64,000 nt of DNA. It comes from Ulvibacter algarum (GTDB taxonomy: Bacteria; Bacteroidota; Bacteroidia; Flavobacteriales; Flavobacteriaceae). How positions within the stretch are numbered: position 1 is the first letter of the stretch; every line of letters starts with the position of its first letter. Position numbers and translations under genes: made by a program. Of this stretch, positions 24,179 through 63,968 are shown piece by piece. The DNA lies in assembly GCA_947488905.1 (NCBI GenBank), contig CANLBJ010000001.1, positions 806,001 to 870,000 on the forward strand, in the 5' to 3' direction. Below the pieces are notes generated by a model that saw nothing but the letters and a program-made list of their open reading frames with translations, did no database searches and had not been told where the DNA came from.

Positions 24179-24748
24179 ATGCAAATGATTTATAGATGGA
24201 GTCTTTTATTAATACTAACAGCAGTGTTACTTTCTTCTTGTGATGACACCACGGTTAAGACTAATACCCCGGTTATAAATTCTACTACTACAGAAGAGGC
24301 CCTTGTAGTTTCAGACCATATATTACCTTATAATCTTGTCTCGCGTATAAAATCTACAGATGATTTGACGTTACTGTATGCGCAAATAGAAGAGTCATCA
24401 ATTGTTGATCAACTCACAAAAGAGAAAGGCCCTTTTACATTATTTGCCTTGTCTAATGAAGCCTTAGAAGAAATTGATCCATTAGAAGAGGGTGTTGAAA
24501 TAGAAAATCTACTTAAAAAATATATGGTTAAAGGTAAAATAACAACTGTTGCTTTGACCAAAAAAATAAGAAGTAACGGTGGCAGCTATTCAATGAATAC
24601 CTTAGGCGGTACCACATTAGTTGCGTATAAGGTGGGTAATATATTGTACCTTAAAAATATTAAGGGAGATAAAGCAGAGATAGGTAAAAGTGATATTGTA
24701 GCCTCAAACGGGATTATCCATGTGGTAAAGTCACCACTTGATATTTAA
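24179..24748 (+). CDS. Fasciclin-domain lipoprotein
   Basis: A 189-residue lipoprotein: signal ending in VLLSSC (Cys21), then a linker and one FAS1 (fasciclin) domain of about 130 residues, with GPFTLFALSNEAL (about 88-100) and the C-terminal NGIIHVVKSPL. FAS1 domains mediate adhesion or bind small hydrophobic ligands. A second FAS1 lipoprotein is encoded in the nos operon at 58182. Its stop overlaps the end of murB by 4 bp. The role is unknown. Confidence 0.85.
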   Translation: MQMIYRWSLLLILTAVLLSSCDDTTVKTNTPVINSTTTEEALVVSDHILPYNLVSRIKSTDDLTLLYAQIEESSIVDQLTKEKGPFTLFALSNEALEEIDPLEEGVEIENLLKKYMVKGKITTVALTKKIRSNGGSYSMNTLGGTTLVAYKVGNILYLKNIKGDKAEIGKSDIVASNGIIHVVKSPLDI

Positions 24749-57062: not shown

Positions 57063-57497
57063 TTACAGTTTGAGTAATGCATTACCGTTTTCTAATTGTT
57101 CTGCAAGATCTTTCAGTTTTGTTTTTTGAAGCATTTGTTTTAAATCATCTCGTATAGATTTAAACTTATAGTGAAGAGGGCAAGGTTTTAAAGCATTACA
57201 AACTTTTAAGCCAAGACCACAACCGGTAAAAATTTCATCTCCATCTATTAAGATAACAACGTCTGCAAGTGTTGCCGTTTCTATTGTACTCTCAGAAATA
57301 CAGAATCCTCCTTTAGGTCCTTTAACAGATTTTATAATAGACCCTTTTACTAATTTTTGTAAAACTTTTGCTGTAAAAGCAGGTGGAGAGTCAATTTCTT
57401 TTGAAATATCTGTAAGATTAACACGCTCACCATTATTAGATTTTGCGGTTATGAAAATTAAAGAGCGAATACCATACTCGCAGGCTTTTGAAAACAT
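57063..57497 (-). CDS. Rrf2-family transcriptional regulator
   Basis: A 144-residue Rrf2 protein with an N-terminal winged helix (MFSKACEYGIRSLIFI, VNLTDISKEI, VKGPKGGFCI). Three cysteines in GCGLGLKVCNALKPCPLH (about 92-109) are placed like the cluster-binding cysteines of NsrR and IscR, which sense nitric oxide or iron-sulfur state. It is transcribed away from the nos operon, so it is the likely regulator of that operon and of itself. Whether it represses or activates cannot be told. Confidence 0.88.
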   Translation of the reverse strand: MFSKACEYGIRSLIFITAKSNNGERVNLTDISKEIDSPPAFTAKVLQKLVKGSIIKSVKGPKGGFCISESTIETATLADVVILIDGDEIFTGCGLGLKVCNALKPCPLHYKFKSIRDDLKQMLQKTKLKDLAEQLENGNALLKL

Positions 57498-57547: not shown

Positions 57548-57565
57548 ATATGACTAAAATCATAT
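57548..57565. promoter_or_regulatory. Inverted repeat 1 in the Rrf2/nos control region
   Basis: ATATGA-N6-TCATAT, perfectly symmetrical. It lies at the -33 region of the Rrf2 gene and upstream of the nos promoter. A candidate operator; the binder is unknown. Confidence 0.5.
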
Positions 57566-57568
57566 TTT

Positions 57569-57593
57569 CGGACAAAAATGTCCGTTATTTTTG
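57569..57593 (+). promoter_or_regulatory. nos promoter -7 box with inverted repeat 2 in the spacer
   Basis: CGGACA-AAAA-TGTCCG (57569-57584) is perfectly symmetrical and directly precedes TATTTTTG (57586-57593), an exact -7 box. A bound protein would cover the promoter spacer, so this is a plausible repressor or activator site for the nos operon. Confidence 0.55.
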
Positions 57594-57659: not shown

Positions 57660-58163
57660 ATGAAAACAATCCACCGTATTGCATTACTCTTTACTCTAGG
57701 CCTATTATTAAGCTGTGGAGGCAAAGAAGAAAAAAAGAATAAAAGACCAGAACTAGGTGAGGCACCAGTAGAAGCGGTTAAAAAAGAAGTGCCTAAGTCT
57801 ACAGAGGTTCCTGCATCAAAAAGAATAACATTAGATAATAAAGGAGTAGGTAGTATAAAAAACCTAGCTCTTAATGCAACCATAGATGATGCTATGGCAA
57901 AAAGAGGAGAGGCTATTTTTAAAACTAATTGTACCGCTTGTCATAAAACAACAAAACGTTTTATAGGGCCTAACCCAACAGGTATTTTAGAACGCAGAAG
58001 CCCAGAGTGGGTAATGAATATGATTCTTGACCCTAAGTTAATGACAGAAGAAGATCAATGTGCAAAAGATTTATTAGTTGAGTTTAACGGTGCTGCAATG
58101 TCTAACCAAAATTTAACTGAAACGCAAGCACGTGAAATTTTAGAATATTTCAGAACACTTTAA
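57660..58163 (+). CDS. c-type cytochrome lipoprotein of the nos operon
   Basis: A 167-residue lipoprotein: signal MKTIHRIALLFTLGLLLSC (Cys19), a Lys/Glu/Pro-rich linker (about 22-70) and a monohaem cytochrome c domain with CTACH (about 95-99) and a Met ligand in the GAAMSNQN region (about 147). It is the first gene of the nos operon and the likely electron donor to NosZ. Small cytochromes next to Sec-type nosZ genes are known in Bacteroidota. Confidence 0.88.
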   Translation: MKTIHRIALLFTLGLLLSCGGKEEKKNKRPELGEAPVEAVKKEVPKSTEVPASKRITLDNKGVGSIKNLALNATIDDAMAKRGEAIFKTNCTACHKTTKRFIGPNPTGILERRSPEWVMNMILDPKLMTEEDQCAKDLLVEFNGAAMSNQNLTETQAREILEYFRTL

Positions 58164-58181
58164 TATTAAAAACTAACCAAA

Positions 58182-58760
58182 ATGAAAATCAGACATTTTT
58201 TTAAAATCATCCCATTAGCTGCTCTTTTTGTCATTTTTTACAGTTGTAAAAATGAGGCAAATCAAGATGTAAGCGCAGATCAAACTAGCACAGAAGTTGC
58301 CCCAAAAGCTCGTAAGGGTCAGGCTTTTATTGAAGATGATGGGTCAACACCTAATGTATTGCAAATTGCAATTGGCTCTCCAGATCACACCACACTAGTA
58401 GCGGCAGTACAAGCAGCTGGGTTAGAAAATTCATTAGTAAATGCAGGGCCATTAATGGTGTTTGCTCCTACTAATGCAGCATTTGATGCACTACCAGAAG
58501 GAACTGTAGAAGAACTATTAAAGCCAGAAAACAAACAAAAACTTGCCGCTATTTTAAAACATCATGTAACAGCAGGTAACTATGATAAGAGTTTTATAAA
58601 GAAATTTAAAAAGCTAGGTCAAGCAGATGACACCAGTGCTATTGTAGAGGTGAAAGGAGAAGATGTTTACGTGGGCGGTGCAAAAATTATTGCAAGTATT
58701 AAAGCAGGAAACGGTATCGTACATGTAGTAGACAAAGTAATCTTACCTACATCAAATTAA
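58182..58760 (+). CDS. Fasciclin-domain lipoprotein of the nos operon
   Basis: A 192-residue lipoprotein: signal ending IFYSC (Cys21), a Thr/Ser/Glu-rich linker, then one FAS1 domain (about 60-190) with NAGPLMVFAPTNAAFDALPE and the ending NGIVHVVDKVILP. It lies 18 bp after the cytochrome gene and 41 bp before nosZ, inside the operon. FAS1 domains often mediate protein contacts. A role in placing NosZ or the cytochrome is an inference from position. Confidence 0.86.
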   Translation: MKIRHFFKIIPLAALFVIFYSCKNEANQDVSADQTSTEVAPKARKGQAFIEDDGSTPNVLQIAIGSPDHTTLVAAVQAAGLENSLVNAGPLMVFAPTNAAFDALPEGTVEELLKPENKQKLAAILKHHVTAGNYDKSFIKKFKKLGQADDTSAIVEVKGEDVYVGGAKIIASIKAGNGIVHVVDKVILPTSN

Positions 58761-58801
58761 AAAATACAATATCAAACACTAACAATTAAATTATAAAACC
58801 A

Positions 58802-60766
58802 ATGAAAAAATATAAAATTCAACTTTTATCACTCCTGGGTATGGCGATGTTCCTTACTAGTTGTGGTGATAACAATGGGAATAAGAAGTCGAGTGGAGCA
58901 TTAAATTCTAATAATGCAGAAAAAGTATATGTAGCGCCAGGTGAACACGATGAGTTTTATGCATTTATGTCTGGTGGGTATAGTGGTAACTTAACTGTTT
59001 ACGGCTTGCCTTCTGGTAGAATGTTTAAAGAGATTCCAGTATTCTCTCAGTTTCCTACTACGGGTTATGGTTATTCTGAAGAAACAAAACCAATGTTAAA
59101 TACGTCATATGGTTTTGTACCTGCAGATGATTCTCACCATCCAGATATTTCTCAAACAAATGGAGAACTTGATGGTAGATGGATATTTATAAATGGTAAC
59201 AATACACCTCGTATTGCTAGAATTGATCTACAAACTTTTGAAACAGCAGAGATCATTGAGGTGCCTAATAGTGCTGGTAACCACAGTTCTTCTTATATCA
59301 CAGAAAACACAGAATATGTTGTGGCTGGTACTCGTTTTTCAGTGCCTATACCTCAAAGAGATATGCCTATAGCAGACTACAAAGGAAACTTTAAAGGAGC
59401 CTTATCGTTCATTAGTGTAGATCCAGAAGATGGTGAGATGGCTATTAAATTTCAATTAATAATGCCAGGATTCAATTATGATTTATCACACCCAGGAAGA
59501 GATAAATCTCACGGTTGGTTCTTCTTTACTACTTATAATACAGAAGAATCTAATTCACTATTAGAAGTAAATGCATCTCAAAATGATAAAGATTTTATTG
59601 CTGCCGTTAACTGGAAGAAAATAGAAGAATATGTAAATAATGGTGGTGGTACAAAAATGCCTGCAAACTACGCACACAATGTGTATGATGAGCATACACA
59701 TACAGCTACTACGACAATGAACAAAGAAGTGTTGACAGTAGACCCAACAAAAGTTCCGGGAGCTGTATATTTCTTACCTACGCCAAAGTCACCTCACGGT
59801 GTTGATGTTGACCCTACAGGAAACTACATTATTGGTAACGGAAAATTATCTGCAGATTTAACAGTACACTCTTTTGACAAAATGCTTGCTGCTATAGAAG
59901 GCAAGAAGTTTGATGGAGAAGCTTACGGAATTCCAATTTTAAAATTTGAAGATGTACTAGCAGGTCAGGTAAAAAGTGGTGGTCTAGGACCACTCCATAC
60001 AGAGTTTGATGGTAAAGGAAATGCGTATACTACATTCTTTATTTCTTCGGAAGTAGTAAAATGGAAATTAGGAACTTGGGAAGTTCTTGACCGTAAGCCT
60101 ACATTCTATTCTGTTGGTCACGGTATGATTCCAGGTGGTAACTCTAGAAAACCTTTTGGTAAATATTTTGTGTCAATGAACAAGATTACTAAAGATAGAT
60201 ATTTACCTACAGGTCCTGAGTTAGAACACTCTGCTCAACTGTATGATATTTCTGGTGATAAGATGGAGCTTATTTATGATTTTCCTACACACGGAGAGCC
60301 GCATTATGCAGCAGCTATACCAGCTGAAATGTTAGCGCCAAAATCTAAGAAGATTTATAGATTAGATGATAATAAACATCCAGATGCAGTAACTACTCCA
60401 GATAAAGCGAGAGTTGTACGTAAAGGAAACGAAGTACACATTTATATGGCGATGATACGTAGTCACTTTACTCCAGATAATATAGAAGGTGTTAAAGTGG
60501 GTGATAAGGTGTATTTCCATATCACAAACCACGAGCAAGACTTTGATGTGCCACACGGTTTTATGATGATTGGTCAAAATACTTCTGGATTATTAATTAT
60601 GCCAGGACAAACAAAAACATCAGTTTGGGAACCAAAGCAACCAGGTGTATGGCCGTTTTATTGTACAGATTTCTGTAGTGCATTGCACCAAGAAATGCAA
60701 GGTTATGTAAGAGTTTCACCAGCAAGCTCAGATATTGAATTAAGTTGGACTCTAGATGGAGAATAA
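58802..60766 (+). CDS. nosZ: Nitrous-oxide reductase, Sec-type (clade II), lipoprotein signal
   Basis: A 654-residue NosZ that reduces N2O to N2. The signal MKKYKIQLLSLLGMAMFLTSC is a Sec lipoprotein signal (Cys21) rather than Tat, as expected of clade II enzymes. The beta-propeller holds the CuZ histidines: DDSHHPD (about 109-115), NHSSS, KSHGW (about 235), SPHGVDV, GPLHTEFD and EPHYA. The C-terminal cupredoxin domain has the CuA ligands in DVPHGF and CTDFCSALHQEM (about 619-630). All copper ligands look intact, so it should be active if matured by the NosDFYL system downstream. Confidence 0.97.
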   Translation: MKKYKIQLLSLLGMAMFLTSCGDNNGNKKSSGALNSNNAEKVYVAPGEHDEFYAFMSGGYSGNLTVYGLPSGRMFKEIPVFSQFPTTGYGYSEETKPMLNTSYGFVPADDSHHPDISQTNGELDGRWIFINGNNTPRIARIDLQTFETAEIIEVPNSAGNHSSSYITENTEYVVAGTRFSVPIPQRDMPIADYKGNFKGALSFISVDPEDGEMAIKFQLIMPGFNYDLSHPGRDKSHGWFFFTTYNTEESNSLLEVNASQNDKDFIAAVNWKKIEEYVNNGGGTKMPANYAHNVYDEHTHTATTTMNKEVLTVDPTKVPGAVYFLPTPKSPHGVDVDPTGNYIIGNGKLSADLTVHSFDKMLAAIEGKKFDGEAYGIPILKFEDVLAGQVKSGGLGPLHTEFDGKGNAYTTFFISSEVVKWKLGTWEVLDRKPTFYSVGHGMIPGGNSRKPFGKYFVSMNKITKDRYLPTGPELEHSAQLYDISGDKMELIYDFPTHGEPHYAAAIPAEMLAPKSKKIYRLDDNKHPDAVTTPDKARVVRKGNEVHIYMAMIRSHFTPDNIEGVKVGDKVYFHITNHEQDFDVPHGFMMIGQNTSGLLIMPGQTKTSVWEPKQPGVWPFYCTDFCSALHQEMQGYVRVSPASSDIELSWTLDGE

Positions 60767-60820
60767 CAAAAAGTATATCAATTGTTACTTAAGTGATTAT
60801 TGATATTGGTTAGTTGTTTT

Positions 60821-60852
60821 AACAGGCAGTTCTCTACAAGGTACTGCCTGTT
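60821..60852 (+). terminator. Hairpin between nosZ and the downstream nos genes
   Basis: AACAGGCAGT (60821-60830) and ACTGCCTGTT (60843-60852) form a perfect 10-bp stem with a 12-nt loop. The T run is short, so it may act as a partial terminator or an mRNA stabiliser for the nosZ part. Confidence 0.55.
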
Positions 60853-60951
60853 TATTTAAAACGTGTTTTAAATGGAGCAATCTATAAAACAACACTATGT
60901 GATTAAATGAAGAACAACAGTGAGATTACAATCATATTTAATTTTATTACA

Positions 60952-61563
60952 ATGAAAAAGGCAAGTATTCTAATGATTTTAGGTGCGTTACTATTAACCG
61001 GCCTCTTTGTATTCCCTTTATGGAATATTATGCTAGGTGCACCACAATATCCTGAGCCATTAGGGATGAATATCTATATAGATGGTATTAAAGGAATGAA
61101 TGAGTTTGATATAAAAAATATTGATGGTCTTAATCACTATATAGGTATGAAAACGATACCTAAGCCAGAAGATATGTGGGAGTTTAGCGTATTTCCTGTG
61201 GTTATAGGTACTATGGCGGCAGTAGGTTTTATTATAGGTCTATTGGGTTTTTTTGGTAAAGTTAGCTATCACTGGTTTTTAGGTTGGTTAATTGTTATGA
61301 CTATATTAGGCATACTTGGTATGTATGATTTTAATGCTTGGATGACAGATTATGGAACTAACCTAGATCCTCATGCTATTATGAAAATGGCAAACCCAGA
61401 CGGGACTCCTATGAGTTATAAACCGCCTTTATTAGGACATCAAAAAATGTTAAACTTTGATGCGTATTCATATCCTAGATTAGGTGGTTATTTAATGGGT
61501 GCAGGAATGTTTTTGACGCTTATTGCATATTTTGTTGGAAAACGATCTAAAAAAAATAACTAA
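60952..61563 (+). CDS. Membrane protein of the nos operon
   Basis: A 203-residue protein with about four predicted spans: about 5-25, 82-102, 108-130 and 172-194. Between the first and second span lies a periplasmic-looking loop with LGMNIYIDGIKGMN and GLNHYIGMKTIPKPE. The FNAWMTDYGTNLDPHAIMKM loop is His- and Met-rich. I chose the ATG at 60952, since 15 codons upstream have no hydrophobic pattern. The next gene, nosL, overlaps its stop. It is found with nosZ in Bacteroidota clusters, but its function is unknown; copper handling or electron entry are the likely options. Confidence 0.8.
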   Translation: MKKASILMILGALLLTGLFVFPLWNIMLGAPQYPEPLGMNIYIDGIKGMNEFDIKNIDGLNHYIGMKTIPKPEDMWEFSVFPVVIGTMAAVGFIIGLLGFFGKVSYHWFLGWLIVMTILGILGMYDFNAWMTDYGTNLDPHAIMKMANPDGTPMSYKPPLLGHQKMLNFDAYSYPRLGGYLMGAGMFLTLIAYFVGKRSKKNN

Positions 61564-62003
61564 TGAAAAATTTATTTAATATTTCCGTAGTAATTATGAC
61601 ACTGCTTTTTATGAGTAGTTGCAATACCGGCCCTCAAACTATAGATTATGGTAATGATGGTTGCCACTATTGCTCAATGACTATCGTAGATAAAATACAC
61701 GGTGCAGAACTAGTTACAGATAAAGGAAAAGTCTACAAATTTGATGCGACAGAATGTATGCTCAATTATTTAGATGAAAATAAAGAGCTGCCTGTAGGTA
61801 GTTTACTTACTAACTATTATGAAGGGCCAACAGAGTTTATTCATACTCGAGAGGCTACGTTTTTAATAAGTAAGGGATTGCCTAGCCCTATGGGAGCAAA
61901 TCTAACAGCTTTTAAAACTAAAGAAAGCGCTGAGAAGGTGTTGGCAGAAAAAGGAGGTGAATTATACACATGGGATGCGTTACAAACGTATCTCAAAAAA
62001 TAA
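61563..62003 (+). CDS. nosL: Copper chaperone lipoprotein NosL
   Basis: A 146-residue lipoprotein (signal ending LFMSSC, Cys20). The CHYCSMTIVD motif (about 35-44) with its Cys and Met residues is the copper-binding motif of NosL, which delivers copper(I) to apo-NosZ. FDATECMLNYL and PMGANLTAF are also family features. It starts at the stop of the previous gene. Confidence 0.93.
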   Translation: MKNLFNISVVIMTLLFMSSCNTGPQTIDYGNDGCHYCSMTIVDKIHGAELVTDKGKVYKFDATECMLNYLDENKELPVGSLLTNYYEGPTEFIHTREATFLISKGLPSPMGANLTAFKTKESAEKVLAEKGGELYTWDALQTYLKK

Positions 62004-62010
62004 TTAGCCA

Positions 62011-63261
62011 TTGATATTCTTCAAAACATTCTTAAAACATAAAGGGTTGCTCATTATTGCATGTTTGATAGCACAGTTTGCTTTTTCAAAAACATTAACA
62101 ATATGTCCCACTTGTGATGTCAATACCTTAAAAGGGGCTATTGCAATAGCAGAAGCTGGTGATACCATTTTAGTTAAAAAAGGGACTTATAAAGAGTATA
62201 ATATATTAATTGATAAACCACTCACTATTAAAGGCGAAAATTATCCAATAATTGATGGAGAGGATAAGGGTGAGATCATACGTATCATGTCTGATAATGT
62301 AACTGTTGATGGGTTATTTATTATCAATGTAGGTACAAGTTATACTAGTGATTATGCAGCAATACGTGTTGTAAGATGCGAAAATTTTGTGATACAAAAC
62401 GTTGTTCTAGAGAAGCTTTTTTTTGGTATTTATATTGAAAAATCAAACAATGGAATAATTTTTCATAACAAAGTAATAGGTGATGCTCAAGACGAGTACA
62501 ACTCAGGAAATGGTATCCAATTGTGGCATTCTAAAAATGTAGTAGTAGAACGCAATATTGTACAAAAAGTGCGGGATGGTATTTATCTAGAATTTTCAGA
62601 TAACATTATAATTAATGAAAATGTAAGTACAAACAACTTGCGTTATGGCTTACATTTTATGTTTTCTAATGATGATTTGTACACTAATAATACGTTTGAA
62701 AACAACGGGGCAGGCGTAGCTGTTATGTTTTCAAAACGTATAAAAATGAAAAATAATATTTTCAGAAAAAATTGGGGGTCTGCAGCATTTGGGTTATTGC
62801 TCAAAGAGATTAATGATGCAGAGATAAGCGGGAATACTTTTGAAGAGAACACGGTTGCTATTAATATAGAAGGCTCTAACAGGATAGTATATGCTGACAA
62901 TAACTTTATAAGAAATGGGTATGCTATAAAAGTATTAGGGGCTTGTTATTCTAATACATTTGAGAAAAATAATTTTCTTTATAACTCTTTTGATTTGTCT
63001 TATAACAGTAAGATTAACACCAATGTCTTTAAAAATAATTATTGGAGCAGTTATACGGGTTACGACTTAGACAAAGATGGTGTAGGTGATGTTGCCTACA
63101 GGCCTGTAAAACTATTCTCTTACATTGTAAATAAAACACCAGAAACTATAATATTAATGCGAAGTCTTTTTATTGATATTATTGACTTTTCAGAAAAAGT
63201 GTCACCTGTTTTTACGCCAGATAATTTATTAGACGAAAGTCCTCAAATGAAACGCTACTAA
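62011..63261 (+). CDS. nosD: Nitrous oxide reductase maturation protein NosD
   Basis: A 416-residue exported protein with a right-handed beta-helix of CASH/NosD repeats (about 70-330), such as NGIIFHNKVIGDAQDEYNSG and GIYIEKSNNGII. It starts with a TTG at 62011 giving the signal IFFKTFLKHKGLLIIACLI. NosD works with NosF and NosY to deliver sulfur for the CuZ cluster. The stop is at 63259-63261 and nosF starts at 63261, sharing one base. Confidence 0.93.
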   Translation: MIFFKTFLKHKGLLIIACLIAQFAFSKTLTICPTCDVNTLKGAIAIAEAGDTILVKKGTYKEYNILIDKPLTIKGENYPIIDGEDKGEIIRIMSDNVTVDGLFIINVGTSYTSDYAAIRVVRCENFVIQNVVLEKLFFGIYIEKSNNGIIFHNKVIGDAQDEYNSGNGIQLWHSKNVVVERNIVQKVRDGIYLEFSDNIIINENVSTNNLRYGLHFMFSNDDLYTNNTFENNGAGVAVMFSKRIKMKNNIFRKNWGSAAFGLLLKEINDAEISGNTFEENTVAINIEGSNRIVYADNNFIRNGYAIKVLGACYSNTFEKNNFLYNSFDLSYNSKINTNVFKNNYWSSYTGYDLDKDGVGDVAYRPVKLFSYIVNKTPETIILMRSLFIDIIDFSEKVSPVFTPDNLLDESPQMKRY

Positions 63262-63968
63262 TGATTGAGATAAAAGATGTACATAAGAAATTTGGTAAAA
63301 ACCAAGTACTCAAAGGGATTGATTTAGATATTTCAGAAAAAGGAATATTTGCAATTTTAGGTCCTAATGGTTCTGGTAAAACCACTTTAATTAAAGCTGT
63401 TTTAGGGATGGTGATTCCAGATAGCGGTAAATTAACTGTAGGAGGAATTCCTATAAAGAAAAGCTGGGAATATAGAGATCAAATAGATTACTTACCCCAG
63501 ATTGCAAATTTCCCACCTAATCTTAAAGTAAGTGAAATTATTGCGATGATTAAAGATTTGCGCAATCGTCCAGGAGACGATAAAAACCTTGTTGAGCTAT
63601 TTGGGCTAAAACCATTTATGTCAAAAAAAATAAGCAACCTTTCTGGTGGTACTAAACAAAAAGTCAATCTAGTTTTAACGCTTATGTTTGATAGCCCCAT
63701 TATTATACTAGATGAGCCTACATCAGGTTTAGACCCTATTGCAATGCTGCATTTAAAAGAACTCATTCTAGAAGAAAAAGCAAAGGGTAAAACCATATTA
63801 ATGACCTCTCATATTATGAGTTTTGTAGAAGAAATGGCAGATGAAATTGTGTTTCTTCTAGAAGGTAAAGTTTATTTTAAAGGAGATATTGAAACCTTAA
63901 AAAATCAAACAAATCAAGTAGTTTTTGAACGCGCTATTGCTCATCTTTTAACTCAAGAAAATGCTTAA
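63261..63968 (+). CDS. nosF: ABC transporter ATPase NosF
   Basis: A 235-residue ABC ATPase of the NosDFY complex. Walker A GPNGSGKTT (about 34-42), signature LSGGTKQKV (about 127-135), Walker B PIIILDEPTSGLD (about 146-158) and the H-loop TSHIMSF are intact. It should power NosY. nosY begins within its last 8 bp. Confidence 0.95.
   Translation: MIEIKDVHKKFGKNQVLKGIDLDISEKGIFAILGPNGSGKTTLIKAVLGMVIPDSGKLTVGGIPIKKSWEYRDQIDYLPQIANFPPNLKVSEIIAMIKDLRNRPGDDKNLVELFGLKPFMSKKISNLSGGTKQKVNLVLTLMFDSPIIILDEPTSGLDPIAMLHLKELILEEKAKGKTILMTSHIMSFVEEMADEIVFLLEGKVYFKGDIETLKNQTNQVVFERAIAHLLTQENA

Follow-up and report, generated by a model that had tools for sequence, protein, structure and literature searches.

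A predicted FAS1 (fasciclin) lipoprotein associated with the nitrous oxide reductase system of Ulvibacter algarum and of a subset of its phylum

Gene content and organization of the nos operon

A stretch of 64,000 nucleotides from Ulvibacter algarum (Bacteroidota, Flavobacteriaceae; assembly GCA_947488905.1, contig CANLBJ010000001.1, positions 806,001 to 870,000), here called the window, contains a clade II nitrous oxide (N2O) reductase operon in which a gene for a predicted fasciclin (FAS1) lipoprotein is situated between the genes of a cytochrome c and of the reductase NosZ. The order is cytochrome c, FAS1, nosZ, a NosB-like gene, nosL, nosD, nosF and nosY, with a divergent rrf2 gene. Coordinates are those of the window and the genes lie on the + strand unless stated otherwise. 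The first gene (57660..58163) encodes a mono-haem cytochrome c, a predicted lipoprotein (PF00034, Cytochrom_C, 2.4e-7) with an internal CxxCH motif. It is followed by the FAS1 gene, which is of a type here called nos-type (58182..58760; PF02469, 1.1e-27), and by nosZ (58802..60766), encoding a clade II N2O reductase, likewise a predicted lipoprotein, which matches TIGR04246 over its full length (935 bits, cut-off 625, model positions 1-578) and possesses the CuA motif C-x3-C-x3-H-x2-M. A twin arginine is absent from the N-terminus of NosZ, MKKYKIQLLSLLGMAMFLTSC, and by inspection of the sequence its signal is of Sec rather than Tat type.

Between nosZ and nosL lies an open reading frame (ORF) for a membrane protein (60907..61563, start possibly at a later methionine), which was overlooked in the original prediction, an earlier reading of this DNA that had listed the four lipoprotein genes rightly. 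It had zero Pfam or NCBIfam matches, so that no curated NosB model matched, and it is called NosB-like on account of its place and its membrane helices. The remaining genes are nosL (61563..62003; PF05573, 6.6e-15), also encoding a predicted lipoprotein, nosD (62011..63261; TIGR04247, 447 bits, cut-off 300), nosF for an ABC ATPase (63261..63968; PF00005, 2.2e-28) and nosY, which comes after nosF and extends beyond the end of the window (L002:7962-8744). The gaps are 18 bases between cytochrome c and FAS1, 41 between FAS1 and nosZ and 140 between nosZ and the NosB-like gene; the later genes overlap or are 7 bases apart. The rrf2 gene (57063..57497, - strand) encodes an Rrf2-family regulator (PF02082, 4.4e-23; rrf2_super above cut-off) containing C-x6-C-x5-C.

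The comparison covered 207 loci, comprising the U. algarum locus, the 80 nearest named NosZ loci and 126 other genomes above the NosZ cut-off from a phylum sample of 395 genomes; two entries (L084 and L134) are one genome, leaving 206 distinct loci. Among them, nosZ is truncated in L046 and L237, and of the L241 rows the second consists of a CuA fragment. The 80 nearest named NosZ proteins show 80-89% identity, with Kriegella, Zobellia, Lutibacter and Maribacter at the top. A relative of the NosB-like protein adjoins nosZ in 207/207 loci. In a search of the U. algarum genome that did not extend to NorB or nitrate reductases, NirS was not found and no NirK was above cut-off, so the organism appears to reduce N2O while lacking these two nitrite reductases.

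Lipoprotein signals of the Nos proteins

All four proteins, the cytochrome c, FAS1, NosZ and NosL, begin with a basic start followed by a hydrophobic stretch and a lipobox cysteine. The signals end in LLLS/CGG, IFYS/CKN, FLTS/CGD and FMSS/CNT, and the cysteine codons are at 57714-57716 (lipobox LLSC), 58245-58247, 58862-58864 (LTSC) and 61620-61622 (MSSC), respectively. FAS1 alone (FYSC) misses the strict lipobox and passes a looser one. The claim of the original prediction that all four proteins carry lipoboxes was thus borne out, its coordinates and identities being right by Pfam and TIGR04246.

A survey of signal type in the other nos loci, scored by a regular expression and a hydrophobicity test standing in for SignalP, found lipoboxes in 195/207 NosZ, 186/201 cytochrome c, 171/184 NosL and 87/107 FAS1 rows from the 206 distinct loci. 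The control rows of the same loci gave 0-3.4% (NosD 7/205, NosY 1/195, NosB 0/206, NosF 0/204, Rrf2 2/159). Most rows missed by the regular expression have an N-terminal cysteine anyway (FAS1 20/20, NosZ 9/12, cytochrome c 11/15 and NosL 13/13, although in two of these NosL rows, L045 and L068, the cysteine counted is the metal-site one). The signal cysteine of FAS1 (C22) is invariant in 28 aligned rows. NosZ, the likely cytochrome c donor and NosL of U. algarum are therefore predicted lipoproteins like their counterparts in nearly all sample rows. Since the signals are conserved through the phylum sample, the tethering of these proteins to a membrane, suggested by the original prediction, is the most straightforward interpretation. 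NosZ generally has a lipobox in the sample whether FAS1 is present or absent, and lipoboxes of Nos proteins are an ordinary habit of the sampled phylum. Tether length of the cytochrome c did not differ with FAS1 presence (P 0.1); that of NosZ had medians of 17 and 16 residues (P 7e-6), an effect too small to interpret.

Two plasmid-borne NosZ proteins show related signals. That of Thermomicrobium roseum (L326:3779-5806), annotated as Sec-dependent, has SRRGLLG followed by LASC and resembles a Tat lipoprotein signal. The signal of a Hymenobacter plasmid NosZ ends in GC; in its cluster (L325:4379-8004) ric and a Crp/Fnr gene lie immediately before nosZ, and FAS1 and cytochrome are not annotated.

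Placement and phylogeny of the nos-type FAS1 family

FAS1 is present at nos in 76/80 of the nearest named loci (L037, L044 and L045 are without it, and L046 is truncated). Its absence from most related operons, which the original prediction had named as counting against it, is thus not seen among near relatives, though it is in the phylum at large, where 46/127 NosZ-positive genomes carry the nos-type gene at any place in the genome. FAS1 was located within about 6 kb of nosZ in 25/39 NosZ-positive genomes of the class of U. algarum (itself included) and in 7/88 others; in G257 and G059 it is just past this limit. Six arrangements were distinguished. FAS1 lies between cytochrome c and nosZ, as in U. 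algarum; before cytochrome c; between nosZ and nosB (G033, G126); between nosL and nosD (G037); after nosY on the same strand (G281, G190, G283, G059); or after nosY on the opposite strand (G150, G300, G383, G068, G057, G257, G168). The gene moves yet keeps the same partners, and as such genes usually share the function of their partners, a function shared with nos is suggested.

A profile built from 53 flavobacterial nos-linked FAS1 copies gave at least 155.4 bits for 55 held-out nos-linked copies and at most 135.1 bits for 52 other FAS1 proteins; the latter were FAS1s returned as loci, mostly one best match per genome rather than all FAS1 genes, with eleven loci repeating nos-linked copies excluded. 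In a domain tree made by a quick method (100 rows, 154 columns), the nos-type proteins formed one clade (SH-aLRT 99, stem 0.41) of 26 nos-linked copies, 13 off-site copies and G183. Along with C22, residues G46, Q47 and D52 are invariant in the 28-row alignment, and N87 is found in 39/40 rows of the clade compared with 0/58 other FAS1. A second FAS1 ORF of the window (24179-24748) has a lipobox-like start; against the profile of nos FAS1 it reached 41.9 bits, hence it is not of nos type.

The U. algarum FAS1 consists of a lead segment of the kind GQ..V.D..S (residues 46-55) and a FAS1 domain (68-189). Its AlphaFold model is a plain FAS1 domain with mean pLDDT 85.7, and 92-98 by blocks over residues 61-190. 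Foldseek against the Protein Data Bank returned 32 matches at E <=0.001, among algal, human and bacterial FAS1 structures. Cysteine, histidine or methionine positions common in the domain of the clade are H69, H128 and H181 only, and other FAS1 have these too; no site of this kind particular to the nos type is conserved, an argument against a role in carrying or chaperoning copper.

Around the off-site genes, the only recurring neighbours were rrf2, in G076 and G194, and flanks common to near relatives. In L305:5228-6327 and L306:5020-6123, from two genomes of one genus, the nos-type FAS1 away from nosZ adjoins an rrf2 resembling that of nos. In G257, a genome of Flavobacteriaceae, the surroundings of the nos-type FAS1 by the nos cluster (L316:8071-12267) include a Crp/Fnr-like ORF and one that resembles, by eye, an iron-sulfur repair protein. 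On two plasmid records no nos-type FAS1 was found, in a search with no positive control, and all plasmid FAS1 matches were below 60% identity among the best 12 of 202 records.

Co-occurrence of FAS1 and NosZ

A profile of nos-linked FAS1 copies, A1, was run over the 395 genomes. With a line of 218 bits, placed after a gap had been seen between 218.7 and 197.5, it identified 47/395 carriers of nos-type FAS1. Of these 46/47 are NosZ-positive, compared with 127/395 of all genomes (Fisher 1e-24); counting G183 (197.5 bits), which is inside the clade and NosZ-positive, gives 47/48. Of the 47 carriers, 24 supplied rows to the profile and are NosZ-positive by choice; among the remaining 23, 22 are NosZ-positive. 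The off-site copies alone gave 12/13 (Fisher 5e-7), unlinked here meaning more than about 7 kb away or on a different contig, with several genomes in many contigs and the copy of G076 counted as unlinked at 17 kb from nos on the same contig.

A shuffle within nine families gave 32 observed against 15.8 expected (P 4e-13), the NosZ-negative genomes being limited to those listed by name and G232, with a NosZ fragment, counted as negative. The counts were 14/16 against 0/25 in family f1 and 10/25 against 0/20 in family f24, and seven of the nine were not significant singly. Replacement of NosL by FAS1 was considered and rejected, NosL being in the locus for 36/46 carriers and 57/81 non-carriers; an early lead that FAS1-bearing loci are often without nosL did not hold.

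A palindrome shared by nos and FAS1 promoters

A palindrome, ATATGA-N6-TCATAT (57548..57565), is situated between rrf2 and the cytochrome c gene, upstream of the operon. Its spacing is Crp/Fnr-like. The core ATGA-N6-TCAT was found upstream of nos in 94/206 distinct loci against 2.25/207 in single-base shuffles, at a median position of -70 from the first gene; by group it occurred in 67/80 named loci, 26/39 of the same class and 1/88 others. Beside it lies a perfect inverted repeat, GGACA-AAAA-TGTCC (57570-57583), which is not conserved (1/207 loci).

In 22 genomes FAS1 was counted as a separate unit, and a slightly looser form of the palindrome was scored before it. This form preceded FAS1 in 7/10 genomes with a nos site compared with 1/12 others (Fisher 0.005), four of the 22, with FAS1 after nosY on the same strand, being possibly cotranscribed with nos. 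The background of the looser form was 6.6% of 1100 random windows from these loci. None of 14 FAS1 genes that stand apart from a nos cluster or close it had the FNR box TTGA-N6-TCAA upstream.

The palindrome is unlikely to be an Rrf2 site because it is equally common without an upstream rrf2 (25/30) and with one (43/51; U. algarum and the 80 named loci). A Crp/Fnr-like ORF was present in 21/207 loci. The U. algarum genome encodes four Crp/Fnr proteins above the family cut-off, none of them within the window.

Orientation of the lipid anchors

The surface-export signal of Capnocytophaga, C-X-K-(D/E)2, has its lysine mostly at +3, sometimes at +2 and never at +4 in the published set (PMC5080379). 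It was found in 0/196 NosZ, 0/172 NosL and 1/88 FAS1 rows, the Flavobacterium johnsoniae form SDDFE not being scored. Of the cytochrome c rows 58/187 have K(D/E)2, with the lysine however at +4 or +5; GGKEE often stands past the lipobox cysteine (57714-57740 and other loci), resembling a surface signal one place out of register. The near absence of the Capnocytophaga-type signal favours a periplasmic face for the Nos lipoproteins, as far as their sequences can indicate. NosDFY and quinol oxidation are located at the inner membrane. One study (PMC11237620) assigns NosL, as a lipoprotein, to the outer membrane, and the accessible part of a Lol pathway paper (PMC11885536) yielded no rule for inner-membrane retention. 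The Nos lipoproteins may accordingly sit in the inner or in the outer membrane.

Comparison with known systems

The idea of a lipid tether is partly in print, for NosL (PMC11237620) and for haloarchaeal NosZ (PMC8301774); the new part concerns nos-type FAS1. The haloarchaeal NosZ is likewise predicted to be a membrane-anchored lipoprotein, by a Tat/lipobox signal, and an anchored lipobox NosZ is therefore not a new idea; it differs in being archaeal, Tat-exported and classed as clade I, and a FAS1 partner is not mentioned in the accessible text. The clade II nos cluster of Kordia antarctica (PMC7477175) is similar in that NosZ is of Sec type and the genes run nosZ-L-D-F-Y, an order reported as conserved in related flavobacteria; the available sections place NosZ in the periplasmic space and mention no lipid anchor, cytochrome or FAS1. 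In Bacillota, clade II NosZ is treated as Sec/SPI and membrane-associated, and NosB is called a membrane lipoprotein, in the excerpted text of PMC11388526. Partial texts of the open-access literature on NosZ and lipoproteins contained no Bacteroidota NosZ called a lipoprotein.

Searching the same literature, 5.39 million open papers, for nosZ with fasciclin or FAS1 led to one paper, on a Urechidicola symbiont (PMC10199937), in which nosZ ranks 11th in transcript abundance and a FAS1 gene is in the top 20, interpreted as adhesion; the text available does not state whether it is the nos FAS1. ActE of alternative complex III is, in the part of PMC5928083 consulted, a lipobox mono-haem cytochrome passing electrons to a terminal enzyme; it differs in belonging to a stable quinol-oxidising complex and in having the caa3 oxidase as its partner. 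CupS, the FAS1 subunit of cyanobacterial NDH-1MS (6tjv, 2mxa), is a FAS1 domain serving a membrane redox complex. The nos FAS1 matches its fold with a root-mean-square deviation of 1.3 at 37% identity (profile E 1.6e-34). CupS belongs to another complex with other partners, and the nos FAS1 is known here from sequence and model; by analogy, CupS is a precedent for such a domain working within a redox complex of the membrane. The enzyme of Flexibacter canadensis was reportedly found membrane-bound in 1992.

Possible role of FAS1 in the Nos system

Judged by its sequence relatives, the nos-type FAS1 family is co-inherited with nos and, where testable, shares its promoter site. It is very probable that FAS1, unnamed in the literature searched, belongs to the Nos system, as a real accessory in part of the phylum. 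The explanation preferred overall, to which we give a probability of roughly 0.5, is a lipid-anchored Nos set with FAS1 as an accessory docking or holding lipoprotein. The four lipoproteins would be on the periplasmic face of a membrane, the cytochrome c, its tether about 60 residues long, would reach NosZ by diffusion in the plane of the membrane, and FAS1 may act, without a cofactor, as docking or holding partner of NosZ, the cytochrome or both. As to the role itself, docking or holding is preferred to copper assembly and sensing, but tentatively, at slightly less than an even chance.

Several observations weigh against this explanation. Among NosZ-positive genomes 81/127 have no nos-type FAS1, so NosZ as such does not require it, and no obvious substitute was found in these 81; one carrier, G212, has no NosZ above cut-off. 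Lipidation occurs in NosZ loci both with and without FAS1 and hence does not single out a FAS1 unit. The shared-palindrome test rests on 22 genomes, with P 0.005, and three genomes with a nos site have none at FAS1. The palindrome is not enriched in the U. algarum genome (10 sites against 15 of a reversed control), so its case rests on its conserved place.

The four lipoboxes could mean little if the phylum lipidates many periplasmic proteins and the anchors were gained separately, with no joint unit. Their spread through the sample irrespective of FAS1 agrees with this, as do the lipidated redox proteins known in related organisms, such as ActE (PMC5928083, available part). It is nevertheless unlikely as a full account, leaving the FAS1 link unexplained, and NosD, also an exported product of the operon, rarely has a lipobox (7/205). 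An assembly role, in which FAS1 as a chaperone aids NosL and NosDFY in loading NosZ with copper at the membrane, is also unlikely, and somewhat more so. FAS1 nearly always accompanies NosZ and sits among maturation genes in some loci (after nosY, or in G037 with nosL and nosD on either side), but it conserves no cysteine, histidine or methionine beyond the general FAS1 ones, and the similar frequency of NosL near nosZ in carriers and non-carriers shows that it is no NosL stand-in.

A more far-reaching possibility, rather doubtful, is that FAS1 is one structural part of a complex for N2O respiration in the membrane, made up of quinol:cytochrome c oxidoreductase, lipoprotein cytochrome c, FAS1 and lipoprotein NosZ. 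Less probable again is a sensor or protector which adjusts or shields NosZ under oxygen, nitric oxide or copper stress. CupS is labelled a sensory subunit of the NDH-1 complex in 2mxa, and an rrf2 gene adjoins the off-site FAS1 in G076 and G194, but these two are of the same genus, hence a single case, and no ligand site or cofactor is visible in FAS1; the present data do not separate sensing from docking. A cell-adhesion protein lying beside nos by chance, as the often adhesive nature of FAS1 domains and the available account of the flavobacterial symbiont transcript (PMC10199937) might suggest, is very improbable given the co-occurrence with NosZ even of unlinked copies (12/13), the single clade, the promoter site shared with nos and the missing surface-export signal in 87/88 FAS1 rows.

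If FAS1 is a subunit of a respiratory complex as described, that complex would be for N2O what an oxidase supercomplex is for oxygen, in contrast to the soluble enzyme that textbooks describe. The published top-20 FAS1 transcript interpreted as adhesion may then be a nos-type FAS1. A role of clade II N2O reducers as sinks for this gas is discussed in PMC7477175. If the preferred explanation holds, the soluble NosZ would be a poor guide to electron supply and assembly in the N2O reducers of Bacteroidota, and the annotation of nos clusters would overlook a dedicated, so far unnamed partner gene in many lineages.

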